44,569 bases of DNA from Elusimicrobiota bacterium (GTDB lineage Bacteria > Elusimicrobiota > Elusimicrobia > Elusimicrobiales > UBA9959). The stretch covers positions 1 through 44,569 of the forward strand of contig JACRER010000051.1 of the NCBI GenBank assembly GCA_016234365.1, in the 5' to 3' direction. The position numbers and the translations under genes are program-made. Below the pieces are notes generated by a model. That model was not told the origin of the DNA, did no database searches, and was given only the letters and a program-made list of their open reading frames with translations. Positions 12,104-18,807 of the stretch are shown here, piece after piece (positions within the stretch are counted from its first letter, which is position 1; the number at the start of each line of letters is the position of its first letter).

Positions 12104-12772
12104 ATGGACATACTCGGGCACATCATAGACGGGCTGGTTTACGCGTTCCAGGTGTTCCTGCACCTGGACAAGACGCTGGGCGCGGTGATACAGGACTACG
12201 GCGCCTGGACCTACCTCATCCTCTTCCTTATAATCTTCTGCGAGACCGGCCTGGTGGTGACGCCCATCCTGCCCGGCGATTCCCTGCTGTTCGCGGTGGG
12301 AACGTTCGCGGCCATGCAGTACCTGGATATCTACAAGCTCTGGCCGCTGCTGGTCCTTGCGGCCATCCTGGGCGACAACGTGAACTACGCCGTGGGCAAT
12401 TATATCGGCCCCAAAGTTTTCCACTACGAGAATTCGCGCATTTTTAAGAAAGAATACCTGGCAAAAACGCACGACTTTTACGAAAAGTACGGCGGCAAGG
12501 CCATCATCCTCTGTAAATACGTGCCGATAATCCGCACGTTCGCGCCTTTTGTGGCCGGCGTGGGAGCCATGACCTACCCGCGCTTTCTCATGTTCAACGT
12601 GATAGGCGGCTTTACCTGGGTGACGCTGATAACTTTTGCAGGCTATTTCTTCGGCAATATCCCGGTGATCCGCAACAACTTCTCGTTCGTGGTGCTGGCC
12701 ATCATCGTCATCTCCGTCCTGCCCGCGGTCCTCGAGTACGTAAAGCACCGCCGGTCCTCCGCGGCCGCGTAA
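12104..12772 (+). CDS. DedA (SNARE-associated/VTT) family membrane protein
   Basis: A 222-residue inner-membrane protein of the DedA family, members of which flip undecaprenyl phosphate or phosphatidylethanolamine and support envelope integrity. The family motifs are visible: FCETGLVVTPILPGDSLLF (acidic residue and re-entrant loop), GDNVNYAVGNYIG, and KYVPIIRTFAPFVAGVGAM with the conserved Arg. Its C-terminal tail is basic (KHRRSS). A Shine-Dalgarno (GGGGGAG) precedes the ATG. The stop codon TAA forms the first three bases of the ECF-type promoter element for the next gene. Confidence 0.93.
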   Translation: MDILGHIIDGLVYAFQVFLHLDKTLGAVIQDYGAWTYLILFLIIFCETGLVVTPILPGDSLLFAVGTFAAMQYLDIYKLWPLLVLAAILGDNVNYAVGNYIGPKVFHYENSRIFKKEYLAKTHDFYEKYGGKAIILCKYVPIIRTFAPFVAGVGAMTYPRFLMFNVIGGFTWVTLITFAGYFFGNIPVIRNNFSFVVLAIIVISVLPAVLEYVKHRRSSAAA

Positions 12773-12796
12773 TACTTTGGCGCGCCGCGCGTATTA
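12770..12796 (+). promoter_or_regulatory. ECF-type promoter element (copy 1), before the sigma gene
   Basis: TAATAC (12770-12775), 15 bases ending in CCGCGC, then GTATTA (12791-12796). The same hexamers with the same 15-base spacing occur at 14468-14494. It sits 14 bases before the sigma factor ATG, which is the normal layout for an autoregulated ECF sigma. TAATAC and GTATTA are reverse complements, so an operator palindrome is an alternative reading. Confidence 0.75.
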
Positions 12797-12810
12797 ACCT
12801 GCAGAGGCCT

Positions 12811-13308
12811 ATGGATTTCGAAGAAGTGTACGACAAATACTTCGCGCGGATATATAACTATATCCGCTACCGGGTATTGGCGCGCGACGCCGCCGACGAC
12901 CTGGTGGCCGCGGTCTTCGAGAAGGTGCTGGGCAAGTTCGACACTTTCGACCCGGCCCGGGCGCCGCTGGAGCCGTGGCTGTTCGCCATAGCGCGCAACA
13001 CTTTGAACGACTATTTCAGGCGGCGCAAAATACTGGCGTGGCTGCCGCTGGGCGACCGGGAGGAGAGCCTGGCCTCCGGAGAATCCGTGGAGGGCGCGGC
13101 GCAGAAGAACGAGGAGAACGCCAGGCTGCTGGCGGCGCTGGCGAAACTGTCCGGGCAGGAGCGCGAACTGATAGCCATGAAGTTCACGCTGGGCCAGACC
13201 AACCGCGAGATAGCCGCGCAGACAAGCCTGGGCGAGAGCAACGTGGGGATAATACTTTTCAGGGCCATGAAGAAGCTGAAAGCCGAACTTGGCCCGGAGG
13301 CCATATGA
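12811..13308 (+). CDS. ECF-family RNA polymerase sigma factor
   Basis: A 165-residue group-4 sigma factor with region 2 at about residues 8-72 (YDKYFARIYNYIRYRV, DAADDLVAAVFEKVL, PWLFAIARNTLNDYFRRRK) and region 4 at about 105-160 (LSGQERELIAMKF, TNREIAAQTSLGESNVGIIL). The linker is acidic and alanine-rich. It is followed, with an ATGA overlap, by a probable membrane anti-sigma factor. The matched promoter elements before this gene and before the gene at 14524 suggest that it drives its own operon and a second unit. The inducing signal is unknown. Confidence 0.93.
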   Translation: MDFEEVYDKYFARIYNYIRYRVLARDAADDLVAAVFEKVLGKFDTFDPARAPLEPWLFAIARNTLNDYFRRRKILAWLPLGDREESLASGESVEGAAQKNEENARLLAALAKLSGQERELIAMKFTLGQTNREIAAQTSLGESNVGIILFRAMKKLKAELGPEAI

Positions 13309-13631
13309 AGCAGGAGCAGGACGGGGAATTCGGGCCGGAGCTGAGCCGGCTGGAGGCCAGGCTGCGCCGCGCCGATTTCAGCGGCGAGAGCCAGGTGCGC
13401 GACGTGCTGAAAGAGCGCCTGCTGGACCCGCAGGCGCGCCGCCGCCGCACGCCCGTGCTGGCCTGGCTGGTGCCGGCCGCCGCCGCAGCCGCGCTGCTGG
13501 TAATGTTCGCGCCGCGGCATAAGGCCCCCGCGCCGGCCGCGCAGGGGTCGTCCTACTCGCTGCCGGACGACGGTTACGGCGCCTGCGGCAGGCAGGGCCT
13601 GCAGGATTACCAGGCGGGGGAGAGGTTTTAG
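13305..13631 (+). CDS. Probable single-pass anti-sigma factor
   Basis: A 108-residue protein with an Arg/Glu-rich cytoplasmic N-terminus (about 1-45), one transmembrane helix (VLAWLVPAAAAAALLVMFA, about 48-66) and a short extracytoplasmic tail containing a single Cys. I see no zinc-binding HxxxCxxC motif, so it is not a ZAS-type anti-sigma. The call rests on size, topology and the four-base overlap with the ECF sigma gene. A small membrane protein of other function remains possible. Confidence 0.65.
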   Translation: MKQEQDGEFGPELSRLEARLRRADFSGESQVRDVLKERLLDPQARRRRTPVLAWLVPAAAAAALLVMFAPRHKAPAPAAQGSSYSLPDDGYGACGRQGLQDYQAGERF

Positions 13632-13639
13632 GAGCCATT

Positions 13640-14416
13640 ATGAGGAAAATAATAATTATAGCGCTGGCGCTCGCGGCCGGCCAGGCCTGGGCGCTGGAAA
13701 TAAAAAGCGCGGTCAATGCGCAGGGGCGGCTGGAAGATGATCTTAACCTCCCCTTCGTTAACGACCCCGCCTTGATAGGGACCTGGCGGGCCGTGGCCTT
13801 TGTGGCCAGCCCGGCCGAGTTCGCGCCGGGTGCGGCGCCGGCCGGGGACCTGTATCTGAAAGAACTGGTGTTCCTGCCCGGAGGCAAAAGCCCCAACGGC
13901 TGGCTCACCTGGATCAAGGGCGCGGTGCTGCACCACGGCGACAAGACCGCGGCGCGCTATGAAATAAAAAAACTGGGCGGCGCGGAGTACCTGTTCTTCG
14001 AATGGAAGAGCGGCGATTATACGCTGCGCCACGCCAAGCCGCAGTACTACGTGCTCAAGAAGCAGGCCGCTATCCGCCGCGACAATATAGACCTGCCTTT
14101 CCGCGACGACCCGGCGGTGCTGGGCGCCTGGGAGAGCGTGGATTTTGTGGAAGCTCCGGAGAAATTCAACCCGGGCGCCAGGGCCTGGCAGGGAGACCTG
14201 TACCTGAAGGAGCTGGTGTTCCTGCCCAAGGGCAAAGGCGCCAAACCCTGGTGGACCTGGACCAAAGGCGTGGTGCTGCACAGCGGGGACCAGACCGCCA
14301 GCAAATACGAGATAAAGAAGCTGGCCGGCGCGGATTATCTGTTCTTCGAATGGAAAAGCGGCGATTATATCTTCCGCGGCGCCAAGCCTTTCTATTACGT
14401 GCTTAAACGGAAATAG
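13640..14416 (+). CDS. Exported protein with two tandem WKSGDY domains
   Basis: A 258-residue protein with a signal peptide (cleavage likely after QAWA, residue 18) followed by two copies of one domain of about 110 residues, roughly 33-143 and 150-257. Each copy runs: LPFxxDPAxxGxW, FxPG, GDLYLKELVFLP, W-T-W-x-KG, VLHxGDxTAxxYEIKKL, YLFFEWKSGDY, and a final YYVLK. I know of no function and assign none. An AGGAG ribosome site precedes the ATG, 8 bases after the anti-sigma stop, so it belongs to the sigma operon. A strong terminator follows. Confidence 0.85.
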   Translation: MRKIIIIALALAAGQAWALEIKSAVNAQGRLEDDLNLPFVNDPALIGTWRAVAFVASPAEFAPGAAPAGDLYLKELVFLPGGKSPNGWLTWIKGAVLHHGDKTAARYEIKKLGGAEYLFFEWKSGDYTLRHAKPQYYVLKKQAAIRRDNIDLPFRDDPAVLGAWESVDFVEAPEKFNPGARAWQGDLYLKELVFLPKGKGAKPWWTWTKGVVLHSGDQTASKYEIKKLAGADYLFFEWKSGDYIFRGAKPFYYVLKRK

Positions 14417-14436
14417 TCCCGCGCGGACATTTCGGG

Positions 14437-14467
14437 AACCCCCGCCCAAAGCGGGGGTTTTCTTTTG
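14437..14467 (+). terminator. Terminator of the ECF sigma operon
   Basis: Nine-bp stem (14437-14445 / 14451-14459) with a 5-base loop and a TTTTCTTTT tail. It ends immediately before the second ECF-type promoter element, so the downstream gene needs that promoter. Confidence 0.92.
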
Positions 14468-14494
14468 TAATACTTTTCCCGGCCGCGCGTATTA
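14468..14494 (+). promoter_or_regulatory. ECF-type promoter element (copy 2), before the single-domain gene
   Basis: TAATAC (14468-14473), 15 bases ending in CCGCGC, GTATTA (14489-14494). The hexamers and spacing are identical to 12770-12796, and similarity continues for about 13 bases downstream (AGA and GGC shared). The next gene starts 29 bases after the element. Confidence 0.75.
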
Positions 14495-14523
14495 GCTTCT
14501 AGAAGGCAAACCAAGGAGGCGTT

Positions 14524-14994
14524 ATGAAACTCAAAGTTATGGCTATCATGGCGGTGCTGGCGGCGGGCGCGGCGTTGGTGACGGCCGGGGAAATAAAGAT
14601 AGGCGACCCCGAGGCGGCCGGCCGGCTGGTGGATAACATCGACCTGTCTTTTGTGGACGACCCCGCCGTGCTGGGCGAGTGGCGCAGCGTGGACTTTGTG
14701 CGCGAGCCGGGGGACTTTGTTCCCGCCTATAAGCGGTTCCAGGGCGACCTGTACCTGGGCGGGTTCAGGTTCTTCCCCAACGGGGCTATGGGGGTTATCC
14801 CCTTTGCGCCAGACAGCGCGCCCTGGTTCAAATGGACAAAGGGTGTGGTGACGCACAGCGGCGACAAGACGGCCAGCCGCTACCTTATAAAGAAGATCAA
14901 GGGCGCGGAGTACATGTTCTTTGAGTGGAAAAGCGGCGACTACACCATCCGCCACCGGAAACCGCAGTACTACGTGCTGCGGAAAGTGAAGTGA
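14524..14994 (+). CDS. Exported single WKSGDY-domain protein
   Basis: A 156-residue protein with a signal peptide (MKLKVMAIMAVLAAGAALVTA, cleavage near residue 21) and one copy of the domain that is duplicated in the protein at 13640-14416. The shared blocks are LSFVDDPAVLGEWRSVDFV, GDLYL, W-x-KW-T-KG, THSGDKTASRY, MFFEWKSGDY and KPQYYVLRK. AAGGAGG gives a strong ribosome site. It has its own copy of the ECF-type promoter, so it should be co-induced with the sigma operon. The function is unknown; the module as a whole suggests an envelope stress or sensing role. Confidence 0.85.
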   Translation: MKLKVMAIMAVLAAGAALVTAGEIKIGDPEAAGRLVDNIDLSFVDDPAVLGEWRSVDFVREPGDFVPAYKRFQGDLYLGGFRFFPNGAMGVIPFAPDSAPWFKWTKGVVTHSGDKTASRYLIKKIKGAEYMFFEWKSGDYTIRHRKPQYYVLRKVK

Positions 14995-15141: not shown

Positions 15142-15501
15142 ATGCCTAAGATATTAGCCGCAGACCAGGACCTTTACGTCCTCGAGTGTTATAAGAAACT
15201 TTTTTCCGAGGCCGGAGTGGAAGTCTGCACCGCCGAGGACGCCACCAGCGCCATTTCGCAGTTCGGCCAGCATAAGCCGGACATCGTGATACTGGATATG
15301 GAGCTGGCCGGAGGCGGCGGCAAGGGCGTGCTGGAGCGGTTGCGCAATATCTTTATGAGCAAGGTTCCGGTGCTTATAGCCACCACGCACCCGGCCGAAG
15401 TGCTGGATATGAGCGAAGACCCCGACGTGTATATAGTTAAGAAGGATTTTAAGACGCCGGTGCTGCTGAGTACGGTGAGGCGCGTTCTTAAATTGGCCTA
15501 G
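15142..15501 (+). CDS. Stand-alone response-regulator receiver domain
   Basis: A 119-residue CheY-like protein with no output domain. The phosphoacceptor Asp is in IVILDMEL (about residue 53), the acidic pocket is AADQD (residues 6-9), the conserved Thr is in LIATTHP and the Lys is in YIVKKDF. GGGGGGAA precedes the ATG. A TATAAT at 15086-15091 is a possible -10 box. No histidine kinase is nearby, so its partner is elsewhere. A perfect terminator follows. Confidence 0.9.
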   Translation: MPKILAADQDLYVLECYKKLFSEAGVEVCTAEDATSAISQFGQHKPDIVILDMELAGGGGKGVLERLRNIFMSKVPVLIATTHPAEVLDMSEDPDVYIVKKDFKTPVLLSTVRRVLKLA

Positions 15502-15624: not shown

Positions 15625-16257
15625 ATGGCCAAAACCGCTGTTAAAACCAAGAAGCCCGGCGCCCCTCCCAACCTGGAGCGCATCCTGGGCGCGGCCGCCC
15701 GCCTTTTTACCAAACAGGGCTTCCACGGCACCTCCACGCGAGACATCGCCGCGGAAGCCGGGGTGTCGCTGGGAAATATCTATAACTATTTCAAAACCAA
15801 GGAAGAGATCTTTGTACTGCTGCTGCAGACCTATGAAAAAGAGTATTTCCGCCCCGACCAGCCGCTGATAAAGGCGCTGATGGAAACCTCGTTCCCCGAC
15901 AATATCGAGGAGCTGGGTTTCGCGTCGCGCGACACGATAGAGAAGTTTTCCATCTATATCCTCCTTATCTATGTGGACGTGGTGGAATTCGGGGCAAGGC
16001 ACGTGGCCGGGATCTTCGCCAATATGCGCGCGGGCTACGCGCAGGCGGTTAAGGGGCGCGGCGCGGCCCAGTTGCGCAAAATAGCCCCGGACGTGGACCC
16101 GGTGGCGGCCCTGATGATGGTGACCTGGAACTATTACAACTATTTCGTAATGGAGAAACTGTTCAAGGTGAAGGGGCATTACGGCCTGCCGGAAACCGAG
16201 GCCGTTAAATTATTCGCGCGTGTTTTTAAACGCGGCATACTCAGGGGGAAGGCATGA
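15625..16257 (+). CDS. TetR-family transcriptional regulator
   Basis: A 210-residue TetR repressor. The N-terminal helix-turn-helix is at about residues 18-65 (AARLFTKQGFHGTSTRDIAAEAGVSL, then GNIYNYFKTKEEIF), and an all-helical ligand/dimer domain follows. The sequence just before the HTH is Lys/Pro-rich. The ATG at 15625 lies four bases after the operator palindrome and has no evident Shine-Dalgarno. Co-transcription with a CoA-transferase and a thiolase (ATGA overlap with the former) suggests an acyl-CoA as inducer, by analogy with FadR/PsrA-type regulators. Confidence 0.93.
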   Translation: MAKTAVKTKKPGAPPNLERILGAAARLFTKQGFHGTSTRDIAAEAGVSLGNIYNYFKTKEEIFVLLLQTYEKEYFRPDQPLIKALMETSFPDNIEELGFASRDTIEKFSIYILLIYVDVVEFGARHVAGIFANMRAGYAQAVKGRGAAQLRKIAPDVDPVAALMMVTWNYYNYFVMEKLFKVKGHYGLPETEAVKLFARVFKRGILRGKA

Positions 16258-17585
16258 TGGTCGCTGAAAAGACCCGGGTTACGCGCAAAAGCGCCTACGC
16301 CGAAAAATTGATAACCGCCGAAGAAGCCGCAGCGCTGATCAAGAGCGGCGACGACGTGGTGGTAGCGCAGTGCGCCTCCGAGCCGCAGGGCTGCATGAGC
16401 CAGTTCCACAAGGCGGCGCCCCGCGTTAAGGACGCGCGCGTGTTCTCCGTGCTGACGCTCAAACCCTACGATTTTTACATGAAACCGGAGATGAAGGGCC
16501 ACTTCGAGCTGGCCAGCTGGTTCCACGCGCCCGGTTCGCGCCAGGCGCTGGCCGCCGGCGCCGGCACCGTGACCTACGTGCCCAACATGCTGCACCGCGC
16601 GGCGCTGGACCGCCTGCAGGCCCGCAAGCCCGACATTTTCTTCGGCACCTGCACCCCGCCGGACGCGCAGGGTTTTGTTTCGCTTTCGCTGGGCATCACC
16701 TACGAAAAGGATATCCTGGAGGCCGCGGACACCGTGATCCTGGAAGTGAACCGCAACCTGCCGCGCACCTTTGGCGACACCCACCTGCACGTTGGCGACG
16801 TGGACTGGTTCGTGGAGCACCACCAGGAAGTGCCTTCGCTGCCGTCTCCCAACCCGGACGCCACCGAAACCACCATCGGCAACTACATCGCCGAGCTGGT
16901 GGACGACGGCGCCACCATCCAGCTGGGCATAGGCGGCATTCCCAACGCCTGCGCCCTGGCGCTGAAGGGCAAGAAGGACCTGGGCGTGCATACCGAAATG
17001 ATGGTGGACTCCATGATGGAGCTTTACCAGGCCGGCGTGGTGACCAATAAGCGCAAAGCGCTGCTCAAAGATAAATTCGTCTGCACTTTTGCCATGGGTT
17101 CGCGCAAACTTTACGACTGGCTCGACGACAATCCCGCGGTGGAGTTCCGCCGCGGCAGCTGGGTTAACGACCCCGCCGTGATCCGGCAGAATTCCCGCAT
17201 GGTGTCCATCAACACCTGCCTCACCGTGGACCTTACCGGCCAGGTGGCCAGCGAATCCATAGGCACCACGCAGTATTCCGGTACCGGCGGCCAGACCGAC
17301 ACCGCCGTGGGCGCCAAGGAAGCTTACGACGGCCTGGGCAAGAGCATCATAGCCTGCCGCGCCACGGCCAAGAAAGGGACCGTTTCCTGCATAGTGCCCA
17401 CGCTGGCGGAAGGCACCGCCGTTACGCTGCACCGCGCCAATACGGACAACATCGTTACCGAGTTCGGCATAGCGCGGCTGCGCGGCCGCACCGTGCGCGA
17501 GCGCGCCAACGCGCTTATCAGCGTGGCCCACCCCGATTTCCGCGCAGACTTAAGGAAGCAGGCGGAAAAACTGGGGTACCTGTAA
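16254..17585 (+). CDS. Acetyl-CoA hydrolase/transferase family CoA-transferase
   Basis: A 443-residue class-I CoA-transferase of the 4-hydroxybutyrate/butyrate:acetate type. Recognisable blocks are the N-terminal KLITAEEAAALIKSGDDVVV, QLGIGGIPNACA, the catalytic-glutamate segment LGVHTEMMVD and the C-terminal VTEFGIARLRGRTVRERA with HPDFR. It would move CoA between acetyl-CoA and a short-chain acid; which acid cannot be read. It overlaps the tetR stop by ATGA; an ATG at 16257 is an alternative start. Together with the thiolase it points to short-chain acyl-CoA (acetoacetate or butyrate-type) metabolism. Confidence 0.92.
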   Translation: MMVAEKTRVTRKSAYAEKLITAEEAAALIKSGDDVVVAQCASEPQGCMSQFHKAAPRVKDARVFSVLTLKPYDFYMKPEMKGHFELASWFHAPGSRQALAAGAGTVTYVPNMLHRAALDRLQARKPDIFFGTCTPPDAQGFVSLSLGITYEKDILEAADTVILEVNRNLPRTFGDTHLHVGDVDWFVEHHQEVPSLPSPNPDATETTIGNYIAELVDDGATIQLGIGGIPNACALALKGKKDLGVHTEMMVDSMMELYQAGVVTNKRKALLKDKFVCTFAMGSRKLYDWLDDNPAVEFRRGSWVNDPAVIRQNSRMVSINTCLTVDLTGQVASESIGTTQYSGTGGQTDTAVGAKEAYDGLGKSIIACRATAKKGTVSCIVPTLAEGTAVTLHRANTDNIVTEFGIARLRGRTVRERANALISVAHPDFRADLRKQAEKLGYL

Positions 17586-17625
17586 TTTTCGGTATTTCTT
17601 TAATTAACTTACGGAGGAGAATAAA

Positions 17626-18807
17626 ATGAAAGAAGTCTTTATAGTGGACGGCGTGCGGACGGCGATAGGCAGCTTCGGGGGGGCCTTGGCCGATTTCAGC
17701 GCGGTGGAACTGGGTAAAGTGGTGACCAAAGCGGTGCTGGAGCGGACCAGGGTGCCCGCCTCCGAGATAGACGAAGTGCTGATGGGCTGCATTTACCAGG
17801 CAGGCCAGGGCCAGGGCGTGGCGCGGCAGGTGGCCGTGGGCGCCGGCATCCCGGTGGAGAAAACCGCCGTGACGCTTAACATGCTGTGCGGTTCCGGCAT
17901 GCGCACCGTGGCCAACGCGGCGCAGAGCATTATGTGCGGCGACGCGGAAATGATAATAGCGGGCGGCACCGAGAGCATGACCAACGCCCCCTACCTGCTC
18001 AAAAAAGCCCGCGCCGGCTACAAGATGGGCCACGGCGAGCTCATCGACAGCATGATAGGCGACGGCCTTACCGACGTCTTCAATAATTACCACATGGGCA
18101 TGACCGCCGAGAACCTGGTGACCAAATATAACCTGACCCGCGAGGAGCAGGACAAGTTCGCGGCCGAGTCCCAGAACAAAGCCGAGAAGTCCCTGAAGGA
18201 GAATCGCTTTGCGGACGAGATCGCCCCGGTGGCCATCCCGCAGCGCAAAGGCGATCCTATAATGTTCGCCAAGGACGAGTATCCCAAGGCCGGAGTGACC
18301 GCCGAGGGCCTGGCTAAACTGCGCCCCGCGTTCAAGAAGGACGGCTCGGTTACCGCCGCCAACGCTTCCGGCATTAACGACGGCGCCGCCGCCCTGCTGA
18401 TAGCCTCCGCCGACGCGGTGAAGAAGCATAACCTTAAGCCTATGGCGAAGATAGTTTCCTACGCCTGGGCCGGCGTGGACCCGTCCATCATGGGCATCGG
18501 CCCCGCCGACGCCGTGCGCAAGGCGCTCAAGAAAGCCAACTGGCAGCTTAAGGACGTGGAACTGATAGAAGCCAACGAGGCTTTCGCGGCCCAGAGCCTC
18601 TCGGTCGCCAAGGAGCTCGGCTTCAACAAGGATATCGTCAACGTGAACGGCGGCGCCATAGCCCTGGGCCACCCCGTGGGCGCGTCCGGCGCGCGCATCA
18701 TAGTTACGCTCATCCACGAGATGAAGAAGCGCAACGTGAAGAAGGGCCTCGCCACCCTCTGCATAGGCGGCGGCATGGGCATAGCCATCTGCGTAGAGCG
18801 CCAGTAA
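17626..18807 (+). CDS. Acetyl-CoA C-acetyltransferase (thiolase)
   Basis: A 393-residue type-II thiolase that condenses two acetyl-CoA to acetoacetyl-CoA or cleaves 3-ketoacyl-CoA. The nucleophilic Cys is in LNMLCGSGMR (about residue 88), NEAFA is at about 315, the catalytic His is in GGAIALGHPVGASG (about 348), and the second Cys is in LCIGGGMG (about 378). All catalytic residues are present. A strong Shine-Dalgarno (CGGAGGAG) precedes the ATG, 40 bases after the CoA-transferase. It is the third gene of the TetR-controlled operon and is followed by a terminator hairpin. Confidence 0.95.
   Translation: MKEVFIVDGVRTAIGSFGGALADFSAVELGKVVTKAVLERTRVPASEIDEVLMGCIYQAGQGQGVARQVAVGAGIPVEKTAVTLNMLCGSGMRTVANAAQSIMCGDAEMIIAGGTESMTNAPYLLKKARAGYKMGHGELIDSMIGDGLTDVFNNYHMGMTAENLVTKYNLTREEQDKFAAESQNKAEKSLKENRFADEIAPVAIPQRKGDPIMFAKDEYPKAGVTAEGLAKLRPAFKKDGSVTAANASGINDGAAALLIASADAVKKHNLKPMAKIVSYAWAGVDPSIMGIGPADAVRKALKKANWQLKDVELIEANEAFAAQSLSVAKELGFNKDIVNVNGGAIALGHPVGASGARIIVTLIHEMKKRNVKKGLATLCIGGGMGIAICVERQ

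Follow-up and report, generated by a model that had tools for sequence, protein, structure and literature searches.

The stretch of DNA analysed here (the window) is the whole of contig C30 (GenBank JACRER010000051.1; 44,569 nucleotides) of the 2.72-Mb genome G000 of an Elusimicrobiota bacterium, and plasmid comparison gave no match for it. The part considered, around positions 12768 to 14994, holds on the forward strand a module centred on a sigma factor of the extracytoplasmic function (ECF) type. The sigma gene (12811 to 13308, 165 aa) is preceded by a promoter, P1 (12768 to 12796), and followed by the gene of a putative membrane anti-sigma factor (13305 to 13631, 108 aa), whose start overlaps the sigma stop codon (ATGA). 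The third gene of the operon (13640 to 14416, 258 aa) encodes an exported protein with a signal peptide and two copies of a domain called WKSGDY, the proposed extracytoplasmic sensor partner. The terminator predicted after this operon is real: an intrinsic terminator with a 12-bp stem lies at 14434 to 14462, and its T tract runs into a second promoter, P2 (14466 to 14494). Beyond P2 lies the second unit of the proposed regulon, a gene for an exported protein with one WKSGDY domain (gene 14524 to 14994, 156 aa; domain 14629 to 14991). Signal peptides and the membrane helix were called by eye and by helix prediction.

The assignment of the sigma gene to the ECF type is confirmed by Pfam and NCBIfam. 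The protein has sigma-70 regions 2 and 4 only (Sigma70_r2, E 1.5e-12; r4_2, E 3.6e-10), lacks region 3, is shorter than about 200 residues and scores above the cut-off of TIGR02937. Its best NCBIfam profile is TIGR02952, of the BldN family, where 132.2 bits fall short of the cut-off of 206.45.

The original prediction had noted TAATAC-N15-GTATTA at 12770-12796 and 14468-14494, with the same hexamers and spacing, as matched promoters. The positions are exact and both elements are real and matched, against an expectation of 0.01 occurrences in the window from dinucleotide shuffles, but the true -35 and -10 are shifted relative to the hexamers named. In ECF terms the promoter appears better read as [T/C]GTAAT-N16-CGTA, with the canonical ECF spacing. 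P1 would then have its -35 CGTAAT at 12768-12773 and its -10 CGTATTA at 12790-12796, with the -35 block TAATACTTT spanning 12770-12778, and P2 its -35 TGTAAT at 14466-14471 and its -10 CGTATTA at 14488-14494, each with a 16-nt spacer. The VTT/DedA-family gene before the operon (12104-12772) ends on the TAA of P1 (12770-12772), which is also its stop codon. Genome-wide, the fuller motif TAATACTTT-N11-CGTATTA occurs without mismatch at P1 and P2 only; the next-best sites have three mismatches, the same level as the reversed control. A wider regulon in this genome was rejected, no further site standing above background, and neither the WKSGDY::subtilase gene on contig C10 nor the surroundings of the other three ECF-type sigma genes found in the genome have a copy of the motif. 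The shorter TAATAC-N15-GTATTA is present three times in the genome, twice at this locus and once on contig C68 (L003, G000:C68:105318-105344), where it forms a perfect 27-bp palindrome, TAATACCCTTAATTATTAAGGGTATTA, in an unrelated context. That palindrome is probably an operator; the product of the gene just downstream of it looks AbiEi-type-like by eye.

The promoter has been followed in relatives by means of 52 loci with their flanks, 25 further genomes with matches among 61 searched and, for the motif and the presence of the sigma factor, 32 genomes of the genus; the genomes compared are mostly metagenome-assembled. In about 19 related genomes, TTTTG-TAATACTTT-N10-GCGTAWTA-AC recurs 5' of both the sigma gene and the one-domain gene, giving a directional consensus, (T)GTAATACTTT-N10-GCGTAWTAAC, whose spacing is constant in all promoters except one (L050) and which is always oriented toward the gene. 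The candidate autoregulatory promoter before the sigma gene, with ECF spacing and a CGT-type -10, is conserved and co-varying. In the scan of the 32 genomes, 35 sites came within one mismatch of the motif and the reversed pattern gave none; 29 of the 35, counted from coordinates, precede this sigma gene or a WKSGDY gene. The six others lie before a paralogous ECF sigma gene (G010:C44), before exported RcpC-like genes in three cases (G025:C13, G002:C22 and G011:C77, the last assigned by likeness of the site only) and before short uncharacterised open reading frames in two (G009:C5, G029:C54). A chance origin of the paired elements is rejected by the shuffle expectation, the scan of G000 and that of the 32 genomes alike. 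The two short reading frames (L125 at about 2000, G009:C5; L106, G029:C54) encode 52-66 aa with a common DALAPLWAGLDIA stretch; they have a strong motif and no apparent signal peptide. The first possible leader of the sigma gene is only about 8 nt, and in several relatives (L037, L042, L043, L028) its ATG stands 7 nt past the -10, so that the sigma mRNA would be leaderless or nearly so. Unlike the sigma gene of those relatives, the one-domain gene carries an ordinary leader that includes a ribosome-binding site.

In G000 the hexamers are perfectly inverted-symmetric and a TetR gene lies close by (15625-16257), as would suit a palindromic repressor operator, for example for that TetR, in place of a promoter. 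In most relatives, however, the second half is GTAATA or GTACTA and the symmetry is gone (TAATAC..GTAATA, TAATAC..GTACTA, TAAGAA..GTAATA), indicating that it is incidental at this locus. The conserved TTT and GCG flanks give the element a direction, which is that of the gene start throughout, its -10 and spacing match those of ECF promoters, and the repeat travels with the sigma gene. On this comparison the operator reading was rejected, and we consider it highly improbable. The TetR gene is followed by acyl-CoA transferase-like and thiolase-like genes in an unrelated metabolic cluster (15625-18807), and a receiver-only response regulator gene (15142-15501) stands between that cluster and the module.

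Promoter and sigma factor also vary together. TAATAAAAM or TAAGAAAAM (TAAKAAAAM) replaces TAATACTTT as the -35 block at both promoters in six loci or genomes. The sigma factors of this variant class, labelled the TAAGAAAAC class, have different residues in region 4.2, for instance S[AGT]R for TNR and GL[TS]ESN for GLGESN. Promoter strings taken from the conserved-motif alignments and the 32-genome scan were compared between the sigma gene and the one-domain gene of the same genome (19 genomes or loci). The pairs differ by 19 mismatches in total against 59 for shuffled pairs, none of 100,000 shuffles being as low, and for the -10 alone within the main class 151 of 100,000 are as low; the shuffles take no account of shared ancestry, so these figures measure how well the promoters match and should not be taken as strict probabilities.

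The sigma factor (at least 57% identity) is present in 19 of the 32 genomes, and all 19 have the WKSGDY operon. Of the 13 genomes that lack it, eight are without any WKSGDY gene, the subtilase fusion is the sole WKSGDY gene in G013, G020 and G030 are cut by contig ends, and the lone WKSGDY genes of G016 and G024 have no motif. The one-domain gene of G009, G025, G029 and G023 is found at a distance of 7-11 kb from the sigma gene or on another contig and keeps the promoter all the same. The motif is thus conserved before both units, varies in step between them, is nearly confined to these loci in the 32 genomes and is absent where the sigma factor is missing. The original prediction of an autoregulated ECF response over two units thereby gains strong comparative support, and very probably the sigma factor controls its own operon and, through a matched promoter, the second unit.

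Many of the same genomes hold a sister module, in which a paralogous ECF sigma factor (43-52% identity) is accompanied by its own membrane protein and by RcpC/CpaB-like exported proteins (L138-L148, L127). Its autoregulatory promoter is TAATACTTT-N10-(C/G)CGTATTTAYTAGTAT, with CGTATCT in L138. The -35 block is the same and the -10 different, which fits the ECF lineage being defined by TGTAATACTTT. Where the WKSGDY-linked sigma factor has moved to TAAKAAAAM (G009, G025), the sister keeps TAATACTTT. To judge from these strings, the sister regulons seem to be insulated by the -10 and in some genomes by the -35 as well.

The second gene of the operon belongs to no Pfam family. Its 108-aa product would have a cytoplasmic part of about 50 residues with two predicted helices, then a single membrane helix and an extracytoplasmic tail, which is conserved with the consensus GYGxCGRxGLxDYxxxxRF (SYSLPDDGYGACGRQGLQDYQAGERF at this locus). 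The tail is the best conserved segment, with a mean column identity of 0.75 compared with 0.52-0.66 elsewhere (0.63 in the cytoplasmic part). A low-confidence model places helices at 11-22, 30-40 and 55-68, a layout that agrees with class II anti-sigma factors, with no sequence match to them. In the literature, anti-sigma regions of fewer than 50 residues are taken for possible members of class II, the type of which is CnrY, a protein that wraps CnrH with its two helices (PMC7406223). In CnrYXH the sensor is a separate protein, CnrX (PMC4803752), and RseA likewise has a separate periplasmic partner, RseB (PMC7593790).

The third gene of the sigma operon encodes the two-domain protein, and it follows that the two elements stand over two exported proteins, one with two domains and one with a single domain. 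The original prediction was correct in that both units encode WKSGDY proteins; there are only two such proteins in the module, and the two-domain one lies inside the sigma operon. The blocks it described (GDLYL, W-T-KG, GDxTAxxY, FFEWKSGDY, YYVLK) do recur in three copies over the two proteins, except that W-T-KG is once W-I-KG and YYVLK is YYVLR in the one-domain protein. Structure prediction for one domain copy (AlphaFold2, 115-sequence alignment), a check the original prediction had proposed, gave eight strands with pLDDT 95.3 and pTM 0.89, so that the domain is predicted to be a small eight-stranded calycin/avidin-like barrel. In the alignment, residues G16 and W18 are invariant, placing a GxW at the first strand, and lipocalins have a GxW motif at that strand. 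The structural matches are avidin (Z 7.1), potempin E (6.6, tied with avidins) and a Bacteroides lipocalin-like protein (6.4); the values are moderate and tied and allow no more than the fold class to be named. A sequence profile search brought up beta-lactoglobulins at E 0.3-1, which is only suggestive. No Pfam family describes the domain in the 115 copies, and NCBIfam has no WKSGDY-domain match for the two window proteins. The best Pfam candidate, SSV1_ORF_D-335 (E 0.00086), was not used, as it covers about 20 residues around YYVLK and is below the cut-off for the window proteins. DUF4909 was also set aside, matching weakly in four of 115 copies; its structure 4lqz is the top Foldseek row, yet with a TM of 0.28. 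The literature and family libraries searched contain no description of the domain or of the pairing of regulator and effector, the latter as had been supposed; the literature search did not find the string WKSGDY or anything joining an ECF sigma factor, an anti-sigma factor and Elusimicrobia.

The order of sigma factor, small membrane protein and two-domain protein is the rule among the Elusimicrobia collected and is also kept in a second family (L066, L073, L076, L082). In other records the domain is attached to the regulator itself. The gene overlapping the ECF sigma stop in L084 and L087 encodes a short N-terminus, a transmembrane segment and two WKSGDY domains, and in L086 a subtilase lipoprotein gene stands between the sigma gene and a putative anti-sigma::WKSGDY gene of the same layout. 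In Clostridium, Anaerocolumna and Planctomycetota records, WKSGDY is found on BlaR1-type M56 proteins behind BlaI-family genes (by Pfam, BlaI in L065, L069 and L058, and M56 in L065, L069, L079, L058 and L062; by inspection in L080, L083 and L074). In Planctomycetota it is carried by HAAS proteins encoded behind PadR genes (according to Pfam in L057, from a HAAS hit slightly under the cut-off in L075, and by inspection in L071). A domain on the outside of unrelated transmembrane regulators is the pattern expected of a sensor domain, and an extracytoplasmic sensor module is the best reading of these fusions, which, like the predicted fold, are supported by comparison. The idea that WKSGDY proteins are response products stands in so far as both units are under the sigma promoter, but a pure-output role has to be revised: with the domain on anti-sigma-like, BlaR1/M56 and HAAS regulators, the two-domain protein more likely serves as the sensing part of an anti-sigma system divided between two proteins.

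The circuit that emerges would work as follows. The sigma factor (12811-13308) would guide RNA polymerase to the (T)GTAATACTTT-N10-GCGTAWTA promoters of two units, its own operon and the one-domain gene. In the resting state the small single-pass anti-sigma protein (13305-13631) would keep hold of the sigma factor, and the extracytoplasmic tail of this anti-sigma protein would dock the exported two-domain protein (13640-14416). A ligand, a damaged envelope component or a protease may alter this complex and release the sigma factor, leading to more sigma factor, anti-sigma factor, sensor and one-domain protein (14524-14994). The last has the sensor fold and would be a regulon product that shares the ligand or partner, probably serving to buffer the signal or to act on that ligand. 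Promoters, sigma pairing and operon order are supported by comparison among genomes; anti-sigma activity, tail docking, the nature of the signal and the function of the one-domain protein we infer. Docking of a split sensor is proposed from the short two-helix anti-sigma region, the conserved tail and the CnrY/CnrX and RseA/RseB precedents, and we think it reasonably likely that the two-domain protein is a separate sensor docking on the tail. The whole, an autoregulated ECF circuit with a split extracytoplasmic sensor, we regard as probable.

The ECF response might instead merely make WKSGDY effectors, such as ligand scavengers or envelope protectants, the two-domain protein having no part in sensing. 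Both WKSGDY genes being under the sigma promoter, extra regulon copies in some genomes (three promoters in G017), three-domain versions and lone WKSGDY genes without a sigma factor (L026, L029, L077) are all in line with this. Against it, the two-domain gene is consistently inside the sigma/anti-sigma operon, and in Clostridia the same two domains are on the putative anti-sigma factor itself, as elsewhere on M56/BlaR1 and HAAS regulators; we consider the effector explanation unlikely. In another scheme WKSGDY would be an inhibitor or adaptor of an extracellular subtilase and the circuit would control proteolysis, for example site-1 cleavage of the anti-sigma factor. A 536-aa protein of G000 (contig C10; L007:289-1899, reverse strand) fuses a WKSGDY and a subtilase domain, as does one in G013 (L032), and the subtilase type of L007 recurs in the L086 sigma operon and, joined to M56, in a single 1821-aa M56::WKSGDY::S8 protein (L062). 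Potempin E, which we take to be a protease inhibitor, is among the fold matches. The G000 subtilase gene, however, is on another contig and has no motif, the Elusimicrobia sigma operons looked at contain no subtilase, and the potempin E match does not stand out among small barrels; we find this scheme quite improbable. Several points weigh against the split-sensor circuit itself, for which the evidence is sequence-based throughout. Shared ancestry is outside the shuffle test, though the promoters have different spacers and are not homologous copies of each other. The putative anti-sigma factor has no match among curated families, and the model of it is weak (pLDDT 63). The fold matches are moderate (Z at most 7.1, VIA), with no Foldseek match below 0.001 (E at least 0.087). 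The Clostridial fusion loci yielded no copy of the motif, and since some WKSGDY proteins occur by themselves with no regulator (L077, L060), a sensor role does not hold for every copy of the domain.

Among known systems, CnrYXH of Cupriavidus metallidurans resembles the proposed circuit in its small membrane anti-sigma factor with a short two-helix cytoplasmic part, its separate sensor and its autoregulated sigma factor (PMC4803752; PMC7406223). The gene order differs, the sensor here would be a tandem beta-barrel with no known relation to CnrX, and in place of metal-efflux genes the output is another copy of the sensor domain. RpoE-RseA-RseB also combines an ECF sigma factor, a membrane anti-sigma factor and a separate periplasmic regulator (PMC7593790), but Pfam shows no similarity to RseA or RseB and the anti-sigma factor here is much shorter. 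The likeness to BlaR1/MecR1-BlaI/MecI lies in other bacteria, where WKSGDY is the extracytoplasmic C-terminus of M56 proteins behind BlaI-type repressor genes; the regulator here is an ECF sigma pair, and there is no penicillin-binding domain. BldN-RsbN, with a class III anti-sigma factor, is suggested by the best sigma profile, but the score is below the family cut-off and the scans gave no similarity to RsbN. The predicted eight strands, the first-strand GxW and Z values of about 6-7 would link the domain to calycin-like barrels (lipocalin, avidin, DUF4909), with no significant sequence match to any family, and the fold does not show the type of ligand.

A broader view, which we hold tentatively, is that WKSGDY is a hitherto undescribed calycin-like extracytoplasmic sensor joined to three signalling systems of unrelated kinds, ECF sigma/anti-sigma, BlaI/BlaR1-M56 and PadR/HAAS, and split off from the anti-sigma factor as an exported partner in Elusimicrobia, where a spare copy would serve as an output that buffers or titrates its own signal. 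The analysis uses nothing but sequence to define a pairing of promoter and sigma factor, with a co-evolved switch of specificity, in a phylum for which genetic tools are scarce. A common yet unannotated extracytoplasmic domain, carried by anti-sigma-like, BlaR1-type and HAAS proteins, comes to light as well. A ligand found in one WKSGDY system would suggest the signal for all, including the BlaR1-like receptors that have no penicillin-binding domain.

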